A stretch of 34,197 nt of DNA, from assembly GCA_016190255.1 (NCBI GenBank), contig JACPQX010000134.1, positions 1 to 34,197 on the forward strand, written 5' to 3'. Made by a program: the position numbers and the translations under genes. Source of the stretch: Candidatus Methylomirabilis oxygeniifera (lineage in GTDB: Bacteria; Methylomirabilota; Methylomirabilia; Methylomirabilales; Methylomirabilaceae). Numbering within the stretch: position 1 is the stretch's first letter; each line of letters opens with the position of its first letter. Under the pieces are notes generated by a model. It did no database searches. It was not told where the DNA came from and saw only the letters and a program-made list of their open reading frames with translations. Of this stretch, positions 18,592 through 34,080 are shown in pieces.

Positions 18592-19971
18592 GTGCGAAAA
18601 CGACAGATGATGAAGGCTTCGATCCTGCTTCTCCTGGGCGCAGCACTCCTCATCGCGCCGGCGATGGTTCTCGCACAGCAGGCCCCGCCTCCAGCCGCTC
18701 CCTCCGAAGCGCCGGCAGCCGCGTCGGCCGTATCGGCGCCCCCAAAGATCGACTCGGGAGATACCGCTTGGATGTTGACCTCTTCGGCCCTGGTCCTGCT
18801 GATGACCGCGCCCGGGCTCGCCCTCTTTTACGGTGGACTTGTCCGCCGAAAGAACGCGCTCGGCACGATCATGCACAGCTTTATCATCCTGGCGCTTATC
18901 ACCATACAGTGGGCGTTGTGGGGGTACAGCCTCGCCTTCGGACCGGATAGGGGGGGCATCATCGGCAGTCTGGCTTGGGTCGGCCTCCGCGGCGTGGGGC
19001 TTGACCCCAATCCCGACTATGGGGCCACCATTCCCCACCAGGCCTTTATGGTCTATCAGATGATGTTCGCCGTGATCACCCCGGCTCTCATTACCGGGGC
19101 CTTCGCCGAGCGAATGAAGTTCAGCTCCTTCCTGGTCTTCACTCTCCTGTGGGCCACCTTTATCTATGACCCGCTGGCGCACTGGGTCTGGGCCATCGGT
19201 GGGTGGATACGCAAGATGGGGGCGCTTGACTTCGCCGGCGGAACCGTCGTCCACATCAGTTCAGGCGTGTCGGCCCTCGCGGCTGCCATGCTCATCGGGC
19301 GCCGCCGCGGCTACCCGCAGGAGCCGATGCCGCCACATAACCTGACGATGACGGTGACGGGCGCCTCCCTGCTCTGGTTCGGCTGGTTCGGATTCAACGC
19401 AGGGAGCGCCATCGCCGCCAACAAGCTGGCGACGAACGCCTTCGTGGTCACGCATCTCGCGACAGCGGCCGCAGCCCTGGCCTGGATGCTCGCAGAGTGG
19501 AGTTCCAGGGGCAAGCCCACCGTCCTCGGCGCAGCGAGCGGCGCGGTCGCCGGACTCGTGGCCATCACGCCGGCGTCGGGATTTGTCGGCCCGATGCCGG
19601 CCATCGCCATCGGGGCCGGCGCGGGGGTGTTTTGCTACTCCGCCTGCATTCTGAAGACGCGTCTGGGCTACGACGACTCGCTTGACGTGGTCGGCGTCCA
19701 TGGCGTCGGCGGAACGTGGGGGGCCCTGGCGACGGGGCTGTTCGCCTCCAAGGCAGTCAACCCTGACGGGGCGGATGGGCTGTTCTTCGGCAATCCTGGC
19801 CAGTTGGGGATACAGGCGATCGCCGTCCTGGCCACTTGGGTCTTCGCGTTCGTCGGGACGATTATCCTATTGAAGATCGTCGATGCGATCATGGGCCTCA
19901 GGGTCAGCCAGGATGAAGAGCAGGTCGGAATCGATTTGAGCCAGCACGACGAGAACGCCTACGCCTTGTGA
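18592..19971 (+). CDS. amtB: Ammonium transporter (copy 1)
   Basis: 459 aa; [78 protein letters not shown]. Confidence 0.95.
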
Positions 19972-30235: not shown

Positions 30236-30344
30236 GATCGCCTCATTGTGAGTCCGACAGAGTCAGTCAAAGCGTTCTTCGCGCTCGAGGCAGGCACCAC
30301 CGAGTCGGCTTAGCTCTGTAACCAACGTGAAAGGGGGGGCGACA

Positions 30345-31682
30345 ATGAATTTGAGCTTGCCACATCTGATGATTGCCAGGGTGTTGATCGGGGGAGCGTT
30401 CCTCGTGGCCGCGGTCACCGGCATCCCGGCCGCATGGGCGCAAGACGCAAGGGACAGGGAGATCCAAGAGCTCAGGCAGCGGCTTGACCGCTTGGAAAAA
30501 GAGCTTAGCGTCAGGAAAGAAGCGCCTCCTGCCCCGGCGGCCGCGCCCGCGGAGGCACCACAAAGTATCGGCGACCGGATCAAGACGTTGGAGGAAACGA
30601 TCAAGAGCACCCCGCTCTTCGCCGTAATCAAGGATTGGAACTTCGGGGGGCATGCCGCCGTCTCCTATAACTATAACTTCAATAACCCGAATAGCCGGAG
30701 CAACGCGGCAGCCGACAACCTCTTCTTTCGGGTCTTCGACGATAAGGCGAACCAATTCACCATCAACCAGGCGGAGCTGTGGATCGACAAGCCAACCACG
30801 ACAGAATCGCCCATCGGCTTCGGCGTCGATTTCATCACCGGAAGAGACGCCAAGAAGATTCATTCCCTGGGACTCGGCGATTCCGAGGATGTTTTCGACT
30901 TGACCCAGGCCTACGTGACTTACAAGGCTCCGATCGGCAAGGGTCTCGACCTGAAAGCCGGCAAGTTCGTGACGCTGCACGGAGCTGAGGTGATCCGGCG
31001 GACCGGCAATTTCAATGTCTCCCGTTCGATCCAGTTCGGCAATGCCATCCCGTTCACTCATACCGGCGTCACGGCGACTTACCCCTTCACAGACTGGCTC
31101 ACGGTGACGGCCGGCATCGTCAACGGTTGGGACAACTCTGACGACAACAATAACGAGAAGTCGTTTCACGGAATGGCGACGATCACACCCCTGAAAGATT
31201 TGACCGTGATTCTCGGGGGCACCTGGGGAGCGGAGCAAACCGACAGGACCAGTCCGAAACGAGGGTTGCTCGATTTCCTCGTCACGTATAAGCCCATCTC
31301 GCCCTTGACCCTCACCGTCAACTACAACTATGGCTCCGAAGATGAGGCATCCGGAGTTGGAACGCCGACAGCCACCTGGCACGCCATCTCGGGATATGCG
31401 GTCTACGACATTACCGACAAGGTTTCTGTCGGCGTCCGTGGGGAGTATTTCAAGGATGAGAATGGGTTCCGGCTTGGATTAGATCCCAATACGGGAACGC
31501 CATTTGACGTCTGGGAGTTCACGCTGACCGGCCGCTATAAACTCTTCGATCACGTCTTTGCCAGCGTCGAATACCGACACGACCAAGCGACGGATTCCGC
31601 GAAGGTCTTCGATGACGGCGATGGGAAGTTCAACGCTAGATCGCAGGACACGATCGCGTTCGAGTTGGTCTATCAGTTCTAG
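30345..31682 (+). CDS. Outer-membrane beta-barrel porin (BBP2-like)
   Basis: Signal peptide (AWAQ), coiled coil, alternating beta-strand pattern, C-terminal VYQF. Confidence 0.75.
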   Translation: MNLSLPHLMIARVLIGGAFLVAAVTGIPAAWAQDARDREIQELRQRLDRLEKELSVRKEAPPAPAAAPAEAPQSIGDRIKTLEETIKSTPLFAVIKDWNFGGHAAVSYNYNFNNPNSRSNAAADNLFFRVFDDKANQFTINQAELWIDKPTTTESPIGFGVDFITGRDAKKIHSLGLGDSEDVFDLTQAYVTYKAPIGKGLDLKAGKFVTLHGAEVIRRTGNFNVSRSIQFGNAIPFTHTGVTATYPFTDWLTVTAGIVNGWDNSDDNNNEKSFHGMATITPLKDLTVILGGTWGAEQTDRTSPKRGLLDFLVTYKPISPLTLTVNYNYGSEDEASGVGTPTATWHAISGYAVYDITDKVSVGVRGEYFKDENGFRLGLDPNTGTPFDVWEFTLTGRYKLFDHVFASVEYRHDQATDSAKVFDDGDGKFNARSQDTIAFELVYQF

Positions 31683-31697
31683 CGAAAGCGGGTGATG

Positions 31698-31741
31698 GCA
31701 GCCGGGGGAGGCTGCTGCACGTCCCACAATGGCGTCGGGAC
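31698..31741 (+). promoter_or_regulatory. Tandem hairpins in the amtB-2 leader; candidate ANTAR target
   Basis: GCAGCC-GGGGGA-GGCTGC then GTCCCAC-AATGGC-GT(C)GGGAC; the second hexaloop has A1 and G4. Confidence 0.35.
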
Positions 31742-31761
31742 ACACACTCAGGAGGTGCAAC

Positions 31762-33306
31762 GTGTTGGTAAAGAACAGTACACTTCGGTTAGTGATGGGG
31801 GCGGTCCTTGCGTTGATGCTCGTCGGCACTGCAGGCATGCTCTGGGCTGAAGAGGCGGCCCCGCAGGCCGCCGCGGCACCTGTCGCCGCGGCAGTCGCCT
31901 TTACGAAAGAGATGGCTGATGCCATCAAGGACTACAAGATCGCGATGGACACCATCTGGGTTCTGGTGACGGCGTTTCTGGTTTTCTTCATGAACCTCGG
32001 CTTCGGCATGGTCGAGTCGGGGCTCTGCAGGGCCAAGAACGCCGTGAACATCCTCTCGAAGAATTTCATCGTCTTCGCCATCTCCTCCCTGGCCTTCTAT
32101 ATCATCGGCTGGGGGCTGATGTTCGGAGACGGCACGGGGCTCCTGGGCCTGAAGGGCCTGTGGTTCGTGAGCGGAGCCGACAACAGCCCCGCCATGGGTG
32201 ACGCCTATCAGGGAGTCTACTCGGCGATCAACTGGACCGGAGTCCCGATCTGGGCGAAGTTCTTCTTCCAGCTCGTCTTTGCCGGGACGGCAGCCACCAT
32301 TGTGTCGGGGGCGGTGGCGGAGCGGATCAAGTTCGGCTCCTTCATCCTCTTCTCGTTTGTCATGGTAGGGATCGTCTACCCCGTGGTCGGCCACTGGGTC
32401 TGGGGCGGTGGGTGGCTGCAGAAGCTCGGCATGTGGGACTTCGCCGGGTCAACGGTGGTCCACTCGGTCGGCGGATGGGCGGCGCTGGCCGGAATCATCA
32501 TGCTCGGACCGCGAATCGGAAAGTACACGAAAGATGGAAAGGTCAATCCCATCCCTGGCCACAATATGACATCCGCCACGATCGGCTGCTTCGTGCTCTG
32601 GTTCGGGTGGTTCGGCTTCAATCCCGGCAGCACCATGGCCGCATCCTGGGGCGACATCGCCCGAATCGCCGTCACCACAAACAGCGCGGCGGCCGCGGCG
32701 GCCTTTAGCGCCACCCTCGCGGCCTGGTTCACGCTTGGGAAACCCGATCTCTCGATGACACTGAACGGCTGCCTTGCAGGATTGGTGGCGATCACCGCAC
32801 CCTGCGCCTTTGTCAGTGTCGGCAGCTCTGTGATCATCGGCTTGATCGCCGGGGTCGTGGTCGTCTCTGCGGTCCTGATGTTTGACAAGGTGAAGATCGA
32901 TGATCCCGTGGGAGCCACCTCAGTCCACTTGGTCTGCGGAATCCTCGGCACGCTGTTTATCGGCCTCTTCGCCCAGGACTCCATCATGCCCAAGACGACC
33001 GGAAACGGGCTCTTCTTCGGCGGGGGGCTGACACTGCTCAAAGCCCAGGCGATTGGCGTGGTCGCCGCGGGCGCCTTCACGTTCGCCATATCTCTGGTCG
33101 CTTGGGCGCTCATCAAGATGGCCATGGGAATCCGCGTCAGTGCGGAGGAAGAGTTGGAAGGGCTCGACTATGGCGAGCACGGCATGACGGCCTATCCGGA
33201 CTTCCAGGCGGTGACGACCTCGCTGGGGACGGGGCGCCCTGCGGTGGCCTCGGGGTACGAAATGAGCGCGGTGACAGTCCCGAAGAAAGCTCCAGCGCAC
33301 CGATAG
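31762..33306 (+). CDS. amtB: Ammonium transporter (copy 2), with signal/N-terminal and C-terminal extensions
   Basis: GFGMVESGLCRAKNAVNILSKN, DFAGSTVVHSVGGWAAL, FGWFGFNPGSTMA, VGATSVHLVCG; AGGAGGT SD before GTG 31762. Confidence 0.93.
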   Translation: MLVKNSTLRLVMGAVLALMLVGTAGMLWAEEAAPQAAAAPVAAAVAFTKEMADAIKDYKIAMDTIWVLVTAFLVFFMNLGFGMVESGLCRAKNAVNILSKNFIVFAISSLAFYIIGWGLMFGDGTGLLGLKGLWFVSGADNSPAMGDAYQGVYSAINWTGVPIWAKFFFQLVFAGTAATIVSGAVAERIKFGSFILFSFVMVGIVYPVVGHWVWGGGWLQKLGMWDFAGSTVVHSVGGWAALAGIIMLGPRIGKYTKDGKVNPIPGHNMTSATIGCFVLWFGWFGFNPGSTMAASWGDIARIAVTTNSAAAAAAFSATLAAWFTLGKPDLSMTLNGCLAGLVAITAPCAFVSVGSSVIIGLIAGVVVVSAVLMFDKVKIDDPVGATSVHLVCGILGTLFIGLFAQDSIMPKTTGNGLFFGGGLTLLKAQAIGVVAAGAFTFAISLVAWALIKMAMGIRVSAEEELEGLDYGEHGMTAYPDFQAVTTSLGTGRPAVASGYEMSAVTVPKKAPAHR

Positions 33307-33330: not shown

Positions 33331-33933
33331 ATGCGCAGAAGGGTGGTGATCATCGACGACAGCCTCGATTCGCGAGCTACGCTCAGAAAGGCGCTAGTAA
33401 AGCTCGGCTTCGACGTGATCGGAGAGGGGGCGAGGGGCTCCGAAGCGATTCGGCGCGCACAAGAGTTGGAGCCCGACGCGCTCTTCCTCGCGGTGGGTCT
33501 CCCGGATATGGACGGGCTGAGCGCAGCCGCCCAGATCCTGGAGGCCCATCCCCTCCCTATCATCATCCTGAGCGGCCAACTCAGCCCGGAGCTGGTCCAG
33601 CGCGCAAAGGAGGCCGGGGTCATGGCCTACATGGTGAAACCGCTTCGAGAAGAAGAACTGCTACCGGCGATTGAATTGGCGGTTTCCCGATTCGAGGAGT
33701 TCATGGCCCTGCGGAAAGAGAACGCGGACCTGAAGCGGACTCTTGAGGATCGGAAACTCATCGAACGCGCAAAAGGCGTCCTGATCGAACGGGACAAGAT
33801 CTCGGAACAACAGGCATTTGCGAGGATCCAAAGAGCCAGCATGAACACCCGGCGACCGATGGCTGAGATCGCCCAGGCCATACTGCTCAGCGAAGAGACC
33901 GTCGGAAGGAGCTCCGAGCGACCCCAGCGGTGA
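33331..33933 (+). CDS. ANTAR-domain response regulator (AmiR/NasT family) with degenerate receiver
   Basis: REC VVIIDDSLDSR...LFLAVGLPDMDG...ILSG...VKPL; ANTAR RKLIERAKGVLIERDKISEQQAFARIQRASMNTRRPMAEIAQAIL. Confidence 0.93.
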   Translation: MRRRVVIIDDSLDSRATLRKALVKLGFDVIGEGARGSEAIRRAQELEPDALFLAVGLPDMDGLSAAAQILEAHPLPIIILSGQLSPELVQRAKEAGVMAYMVKPLREEELLPAIELAVSRFEEFMALRKENADLKRTLEDRKLIERAKGVLIERDKISEQQAFARIQRASMNTRRPMAEIAQAILLSEETVGRSSERPQR

Positions 33934-33984
33934 ATGCCGCGGGTCGCATGAAGTCACGTCGCAGGCCTGACTCATGAACTGATC

Positions 33985-34076
33985 GGAATGCGCTGACGCA
34001 TTCCTCCACACGGCAAGGGCGCCGTTCCCCAAAGAAGGGGCGGCGCCTTCGTCTTTTCAACCCTCCGTATGGGAGG
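33985..34076 (+). promoter_or_regulatory. Structured nirA leader: three consecutive hairpins, middle one terminator-like
   Basis: H1 GGAATGCG-CTGA-CGCATTCC; H2 GGCGCCG(TT)CCCC-AAAGAA-GGGGCGGCGCC followed by TTCGTCTTTT; H3 CCCTCC-GTAT-GGGAGG covering the SD. Confidence 0.7.
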
Positions 34077-34080
34077 CGAG

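Follow-up and report, generated by a model that had tools for sequence, protein, structure and literature searches.

A variant ANTAR-type attenuator as the probable switch in the nirA leader of Candidatus Methylomirabilis oxygeniifera

The amidase system AmiR-AmiC is run by an ANTAR regulator that acts independently of phosphorylation, under the control of a partner protein. In the RNA targets of EutV, NasR and AmiR the second of two hairpins, P2, is hidden within a terminator (PMC3369931, PMC8934654, PMC7496416). EutV is a REC-ANTAR protein that is activated by phosphorylation of Asp54 (PMC3369931, PMC8934654); changing the A at loop position 1 of its target reduced both induction and binding (PMC3369931), and in the EutV structure the G at loop position 4 is the sole base-specific contact (PMC8934654). 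For nitrogen metabolism two systems are described. NasR of Klebsiella senses nitrate by its own NIT domain, and its gene is followed by the nasF leader, with two hexaloops and a terminator, and then by nitrate-assimilation genes (PMC7496416). In the NasT-NasS system of Paracoccus and Bradyrhizobium a REC-ANTAR protein acts on the leaders of nitrate genes, nirA among them, in which a hairpin is followed by a terminator (PMC3795266, PMC5424462, PMC6759348), and the dissociation of NasS from NasT driven by nitrate or nitrite is established in Paracoccus (PMC3795266). A limited text search for papers on regulation by ANTAR proteins in Methylomirabilis or Rokubacteria found none.

Here we analyze a DNA stretch of 34,197 nt (the window), which makes up the entire contig C123 in an 80%-complete genome of the Methylomirabilis type. 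The leader of the nirA gene at its end is very probably an ANTAR-type transcription attenuator.

Gene order and elements of the leader

At the end of the contig a porin gene, an amtB-type gene, a REC-ANTAR gene, the leader and nirA follow one another on the plus strand (Table 1). The initial annotation had named the two neighbours of the leader correctly, as judged by Pfam for the regulator upstream and by identity to the product of a relative, G007, for the nirA-type gene downstream. The contig holds 39 codons of nirA, and over these 39 aa the identity to the full-length G007 product is 90%; that product in turn matches the ferredoxin-nitrite reductase model PRK09566 at E 4e-170, with 566.6 bits, slightly below the cut-off of 594. 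The in-frame ATG at 34069 was rejected as the nirA start, because G007 has ATA there and the start MNKIE is common to both.

Table 1. Positions of the genes and RNA elements at the end of the window.
Feature	Position	Strand	Basis
BBP2/OmpL-like porin gene, upstream neighbour	30327..31682	+	Pfam PF07642, E 2e-80
Ammonium transporter gene, amtB type, immediately 5' of the ANTAR gene	31729..33306	+	Pfam PF00909, E 2e-123; TIGR00836
REC-ANTAR regulator gene, presumed antiterminator	33331..33933	+	Pfam ANTAR and Response_reg
P1 hairpin, GGAATGC [GCTGAC] GCATTCC	33985..34004	+	Folding; covariation in 12 leaders
Linker between P1 and P2, 5 nt	34005..34009	+	
P2 antiterminator hairpin, ACGGC [AAGGGC] GCCGT	34010..34025	+	Folding; conserved in relatives
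Intrinsic-terminator hairpin	34016..34049	+	Folding; excludes P2
Interrupted U tract TTCGTCTTTT, 3' of the terminator stem	34048..34057	+	
H3, weak hairpin CCTCC [GTATG] GGAGG over the Shine-Dalgarno sequence (34072-34076)	34062..34076	+	Folding; common to G007 only
nirA start, ferredoxin-nitrite-reductase type, truncated where the contig ends	34081..34197	+	Identity to G007 nirA product

From the stop codon of the ANTAR gene to P1 there are only about 50 nt, a stretch of the window in which neither a sigma-70 nor a sigma-54 site was found; transcription of nirA may therefore start further upstream. A single transcript would then yield the transporter and the regulator at all times, and nirA when it is needed. 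Sigma-54-like sites (TGGCAC-N-TTGC/CTGC/TCGC) were seen 5' of six nirA leaders of relatives (L119, L120, L125, L126, L127 and L128), as in the leaders of NasR and NasT. The window also holds a second ammonium-transporter homologue, near 18760 and thus about 14.6 kb 5' of the ANTAR gene, which is 37% identical to the one in Table 1. In the complete Methylomirabilis genome G006, which has no full nirA of the same type, there are nirA-like fragments at C1:1454779-1455069 and C1:672512-672694, namely 97 aa at 72% identity and a 61-aa piece containing a stop; fragments also occur in G008 and G014, and those in G006 suggest gene decay.

P1 has the arms GGAATGCG and CGCATTCC and can be drawn with 8 bp and a tetraloop, or with 7 bp and the hexaloop GCTGAC at 33992-33997, which has G at positions 1 and 4 and a C:G closing pair; its energy is -11.1 kcal/mol (z -5.7). 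The 5-bp stem of P2 carries the hexaloop AAGGGC at 34015-34020, with A at position 1 and G at position 4. The terminator hairpin reaches -23.8 kcal/mol and is followed by TTCGTCTTTT. Both P1, in its 8-bp and 7-bp forms, and the terminator-like hairpin had been described in the initial annotation, and both are borne out by folding. The annotation had missed P2, however, and had taken the second ANTAR hexaloop to be AAAGAA; this is the apical loop of the terminator and was rejected as an ANTAR site, being no conserved hexaloop in relatives.

P2 and the terminator are mutually exclusive, because the 3' half of P2 doubles as the terminator's 5' arm, with positions 34018-34025 common to both. In folding, an RNA that ends at 34027 adopts the two hexaloop hairpins P1 and P2 at -20.0 kcal/mol, and the complete leader adopts P1 and the terminator at -40.9 kcal/mol. 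By default the nascent RNA would form P1 followed by the terminator (34016-34057), so that transcription would stop before nirA. When active, the ANTAR protein encoded upstream would bind P1 and P2 and keep P2 closed; the closed P2 would occupy the 5' arm of the terminator, and RNA polymerase would read on into nirA. The protein would be freed or activated under nitrogen demand, the inducing condition probably being nitrogen need or nitrate/nitrite.

As defined for dual-hairpin ANTAR targets (PMC3369931), hexaloop hairpins paired over at least 3 bp are joined by a short linker, and here P1 has 7 bp, the linker 5 nt and P2 5 bp. G is found at position 4 of both GCTGAC and AAGGGC, P2 overlaps the terminator in the shared segment, and the fold switches between truncated and full RNA. 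The A at position 1 is present in the loop of P2 and absent from that of P1. We class the leader as a variant rather than a textbook member, with good confidence that it works like an ANTAR attenuator.

Conservation in relatives and rarity of the arrangement

The same module, with differing stem sequences, is found in nirA leaders of relatives whose products are approximately 58-62% identical to G007 NirA; these leaders come from other genera and families, plus one record labelled Deltaproteobacteria. P1, P2 and the terminator covary across 12 leaders, 11 of them upstream of nirA and one upstream of urtA. The P1 stem is paired in all 12, with changes on both sides in four of its five pairs. 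For P1 and P2 together 96.7% of cells are paired and there are 20 two-sided changes, where shuffles give 5.1; pairing drops to 38-53% when the arms are slid. P1 and the terminator behave in the same way under this test. All 12 leaders keep G4 in both loops and the C:G closing pairs; the P1 loop begins with G in seven leaders, with A in four and with C in one. The rule for position 1 thus appears relaxed for the first hexaloop, whereas the rules for G4 and the closing pair are kept, which is consistent with G4 being the only base-specific contact in the EutV structure.

No Rfam release 15 covariance model matched the window or the leader at its gathering score or at E values up to 10, and we therefore built our own. 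A model from nine leaders that included no Methylomirabilales sequence finds the leader of the window at E 1.6e-8 in 46 kb. A match on the minus strand at 34008-34076 is the near-palindromic terminator read backwards and was disregarded. The arrangement is also rare by a rule set that demands P1 of at least 5 bp with a C:G closing pair and an RNNGNN loop, P2 of at least 4 bp with a C:G closing pair and an ANNGNN loop, and overlap of P2 with a terminator: on both strands of the window the only match is exactly this leader, and 20,000 dinucleotide shuffles of 33934-34080 yield no match. A simpler pattern, GGCANRGGCGCC-N-GGCGCC, was dropped for its many chance matches in GC-rich genomes.

Related structures were seen at several other loci. 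In G007 a degenerate copy of the leader (L002, 3640-3720) lies directly 3' of the ANTAR gene, about 500 nt 5' of the intact nirA leader, with a remnant of P1 and an intact terminator with TTGTTTT. Five other Methylomirabilis loci (L037, L066, L069, L072 and L073) have, just 3' of the ANTAR gene, two conserved hexaloop hairpins of the types CCGCAGC[GCTGTK]GCTGCG and CGATC[AACGRT]GATCG with a linker of about 16-19 nt and no terminator, followed by a conserved, membrane-protein-like gene; this is possibly a terminator-less ANTAR target. Rokubacteria-type loci, including L024, L027, L030, L041 and L061, have dual hexaloops between the ANTAR gene and urtA, for example GGAC[AACGGC]GTCC and GGGCGGC[AGCGGC]GCCGCCC, with no visible U-tract terminator.

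Regulon, regulator and alternative explanations

A model with all 12 leaders as seeds was run over 99 genomes, the names of downstream genes resting on similarity of their products. Beyond the seeds it matches upstream of nrtA at seven loci, of glnB/K-type PII genes at three, of porin genes of the kind found in the window at two (relatives L155 and L170), and, more weakly, of FAD-dependent oxidoreductase genes at two; urtA was added by one separately fetched locus. Judged by sequence, the leaders before nirA, nrtA, glnB/K, porin and urtA genes in relatives form a coherent nitrogen regulon. Some nirA genes stand directly behind another gene with no leader; in these cases several nrtA leaders lie approximately 6 kb 5' of nirA on the same contig, and nrtA and nirA may share a transcript. 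In the 80%-complete genome of the window itself no credible target was found beyond the nirA leader, the next match having E 0.56. Weak matches (E 0.1-0.2) 5' of ANTAR/GAF-type genes in Methylomirabilis (L071 and L074) are possibly self-regulated ANTAR leaders.

The model was also run on described systems. On a Rhizobium rhizogenes plasmid (L208) it detects the nasS-narK intergenic leader at E 2e-5, and in Pantoea deleyi it weakly finds the leader between nasR and an nrtA-type gene, at E 0.013 and outranked by another match in the same locus; by eye, loops with A1 and G4 are present in both leaders.

The REC-ANTAR protein is the only ANTAR protein detected in the 80%-complete genome, so far as this goes a unique partner for the adjacent leader, and is 71-77% identical to proteins from other members of the genus and from Ca. 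Methylomirabilota records. Its ANTAR domain scores 75 bits against PF03861 (cut-off 27.3). Seven of the 11 RNA-contact residues of EutV are identical (Arg142, Lys143, Lys149, Glu160, Met172, Asn173 and Arg175), and the others are changed (Tyr164 to Phe, Lys147 to Arg, Arg168 to Gln and Arg177 to Pro). The phospho-acceptor Asp54 (EutV numbering) is replaced by Ala; without it, control of the regulator most likely lies with a protein partner or a ligand and not with a histidine kinase. Most members of this Ala54 subfamily have the motif AVGLP at the site. Among 70 ANTAR proteins collected around this genome, a urtA, nirA, PII, amtB or porin gene lies within 2.6 kb for 44 of the 47 with Ala54 versus one of the 19 with Asp54 (Fisher p 3.5e-12, with kinship ignored and some loci short).

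Antitermination of nirA by an ANTAR protein, as first put forward in the initial annotation, is thus strongly supported by conservation, covariation, the model built from distant relatives only and the coherence of the regulon. Counted against it are the G at position 1 of the P1 loop, the interrupted U tract, the Gln and Pro in place of Arg168 and Arg177, and the weak match to the NasR-nasF leader of Pantoea. The strong hairpin with its U-rich tail would also suit a plain intergenic terminator of the amtB-ANTAR transcript, with nirA expressed from its own promoter and P1 and P2 incidental. This explanation is most improbable, as P1 and P2 are conserved and covarying, with invariant G4 and C:G pairs, at leaders with differing upstream genes, and as the short interval after the ANTAR gene offers nirA no recognizable promoter. 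Very unlikely, too, is the dual control proposed in the initial annotation, in which the ANTAR protein binds P1 and the apical loop of the terminator while H3 also masks the Shine-Dalgarno sequence. The apical loop AAAGAA does have A1 and G4, and G007 has AAAGAC at the same place, but across relatives it is P2 that carries the conserved hexaloop, and binding to a closed terminator would not stop termination. A hairpin over the Shine-Dalgarno sequence does exist, though not with the 6-bp stem CCCTCC/GGGAGG described for it, which is not complementary over 6 bp; the stem has 5 bp. It is kept between the window and G007, its closest nirA relative, despite differing loop and flanks, but is missing from the other nirA leaders except for a long-looped possibility in L117, and CCTCC within 38 nt 5' of this Shine-Dalgarno sequence is expected in 10% of shuffles. 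A translational role of H3 is therefore unproven, and control of both transcription and translation is not supported.

How the attenuator is switched is a separate matter. In a NasS-NasT system proper, a NasS-type nitrate-binding protein, its gene normally a neighbour of nasT, would hold the ANTAR protein until nitrate or nitrite freed it to antiterminate the same leader. The output genes nirA and nrtA and the architecture of the leader match the NasT-NasS plasmid locus, and the release of NasT in Paracoccus gives a precedent. However, no protein of NMT1_2, which we take to be the Pfam family of both NrtA and NasS, was found in the 80%-complete genome of the window or in G004, G009 and G013, three genomes of Methylomirabilis that are 99% complete. 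No NrtA-like gene directly adjoins the ANTAR gene in the collected loci (in G007 such a gene comes after nirA), and the two NasT proteins compared keep Asp where the subfamily of the window has Ala. We regard this system as unlikely here; with Ala54 and no NMT1_2 protein found in these genomes, control by a kinase or by NasS is unlikely in Methylomirabilis. By neighbourhood, PII and AmtB are candidate sensor partners; when PF13433 was used to look for a sensor of the AmiC/UrtA kind, several proteins of the family turned up, none of them a clear candidate. A speculative extension, which we hold to be rather improbable, is that a class-wide Ala54 subfamily of ANTAR proteins with a phosphorylation-dead receiver could read nitrogen status via a partner other than a kinase or NasS, perhaps the adjoining PII or AmtB, and switch the leaders of nirA, nrtA, glnB, urtA and porin genes.

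If the attenuator reading is true, nitrite-dependent methane oxidizers and their relatives in soil are predicted to have a nitrogen-acquisition regulon, one that covariation supports and whose leaders can be tested. The way in which an ANTAR regulator senses nitrogen with neither a phospho-acceptor Asp nor a detected NasS also becomes open to a direct test.

Comparison with described ANTAR systems

The locus shares features with each of the described systems and is identical to none. With AmiR-AmiC it would share an ANTAR regulator that works independently of phosphorylation and under a partner protein, and in Rokubacteria an Ala54 ANTAR gene lies directly 5' of urtA, whose product we take to belong to the same broad substrate-binding family as AmiC. 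The urtA-type proteins start with twin-arginine-type signals, however, and look exported, and the protein of the window has no identified AmiC-like partner. With NasT-NasS, compared in the Rhizobium rhizogenes plasmid, the window has in common the REC-ANTAR regulator, the nirA leader and the order of hairpin and terminator, but it has no adjacent nasS, nor was one found in the three near-complete genus members, and Ala replaces Asp. With EutV-EutW it shares the REC-ANTAR regulator, most of the contact residues and the dual hexaloop with P2 overlapping the terminator, and its 5-nt linker falls within the 5-12 nt of the eut leaders (PMC3369931, PMC8934654); it departs from that system in Ala54 and in the G at position 1 of the P1 loop. 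NasR and nasF, compared in the Pantoea deleyi plasmid NZ_CP071407 (L206), have the same succession of ANTAR gene, dual-hexaloop leader with terminator, and nitrate-assimilation genes. The sensing domain differs, being NIT in NasR and an N-terminal receiver with no phospho-acceptor Asp in the protein of the window, as does position 1 of the P1 loop, which is A in nasF and G here. The hexaloops of Pantoea nasF are AACGGC and AAAGGC, and the latter is also found in P2 of several leaders of the Methylomirabilota class.
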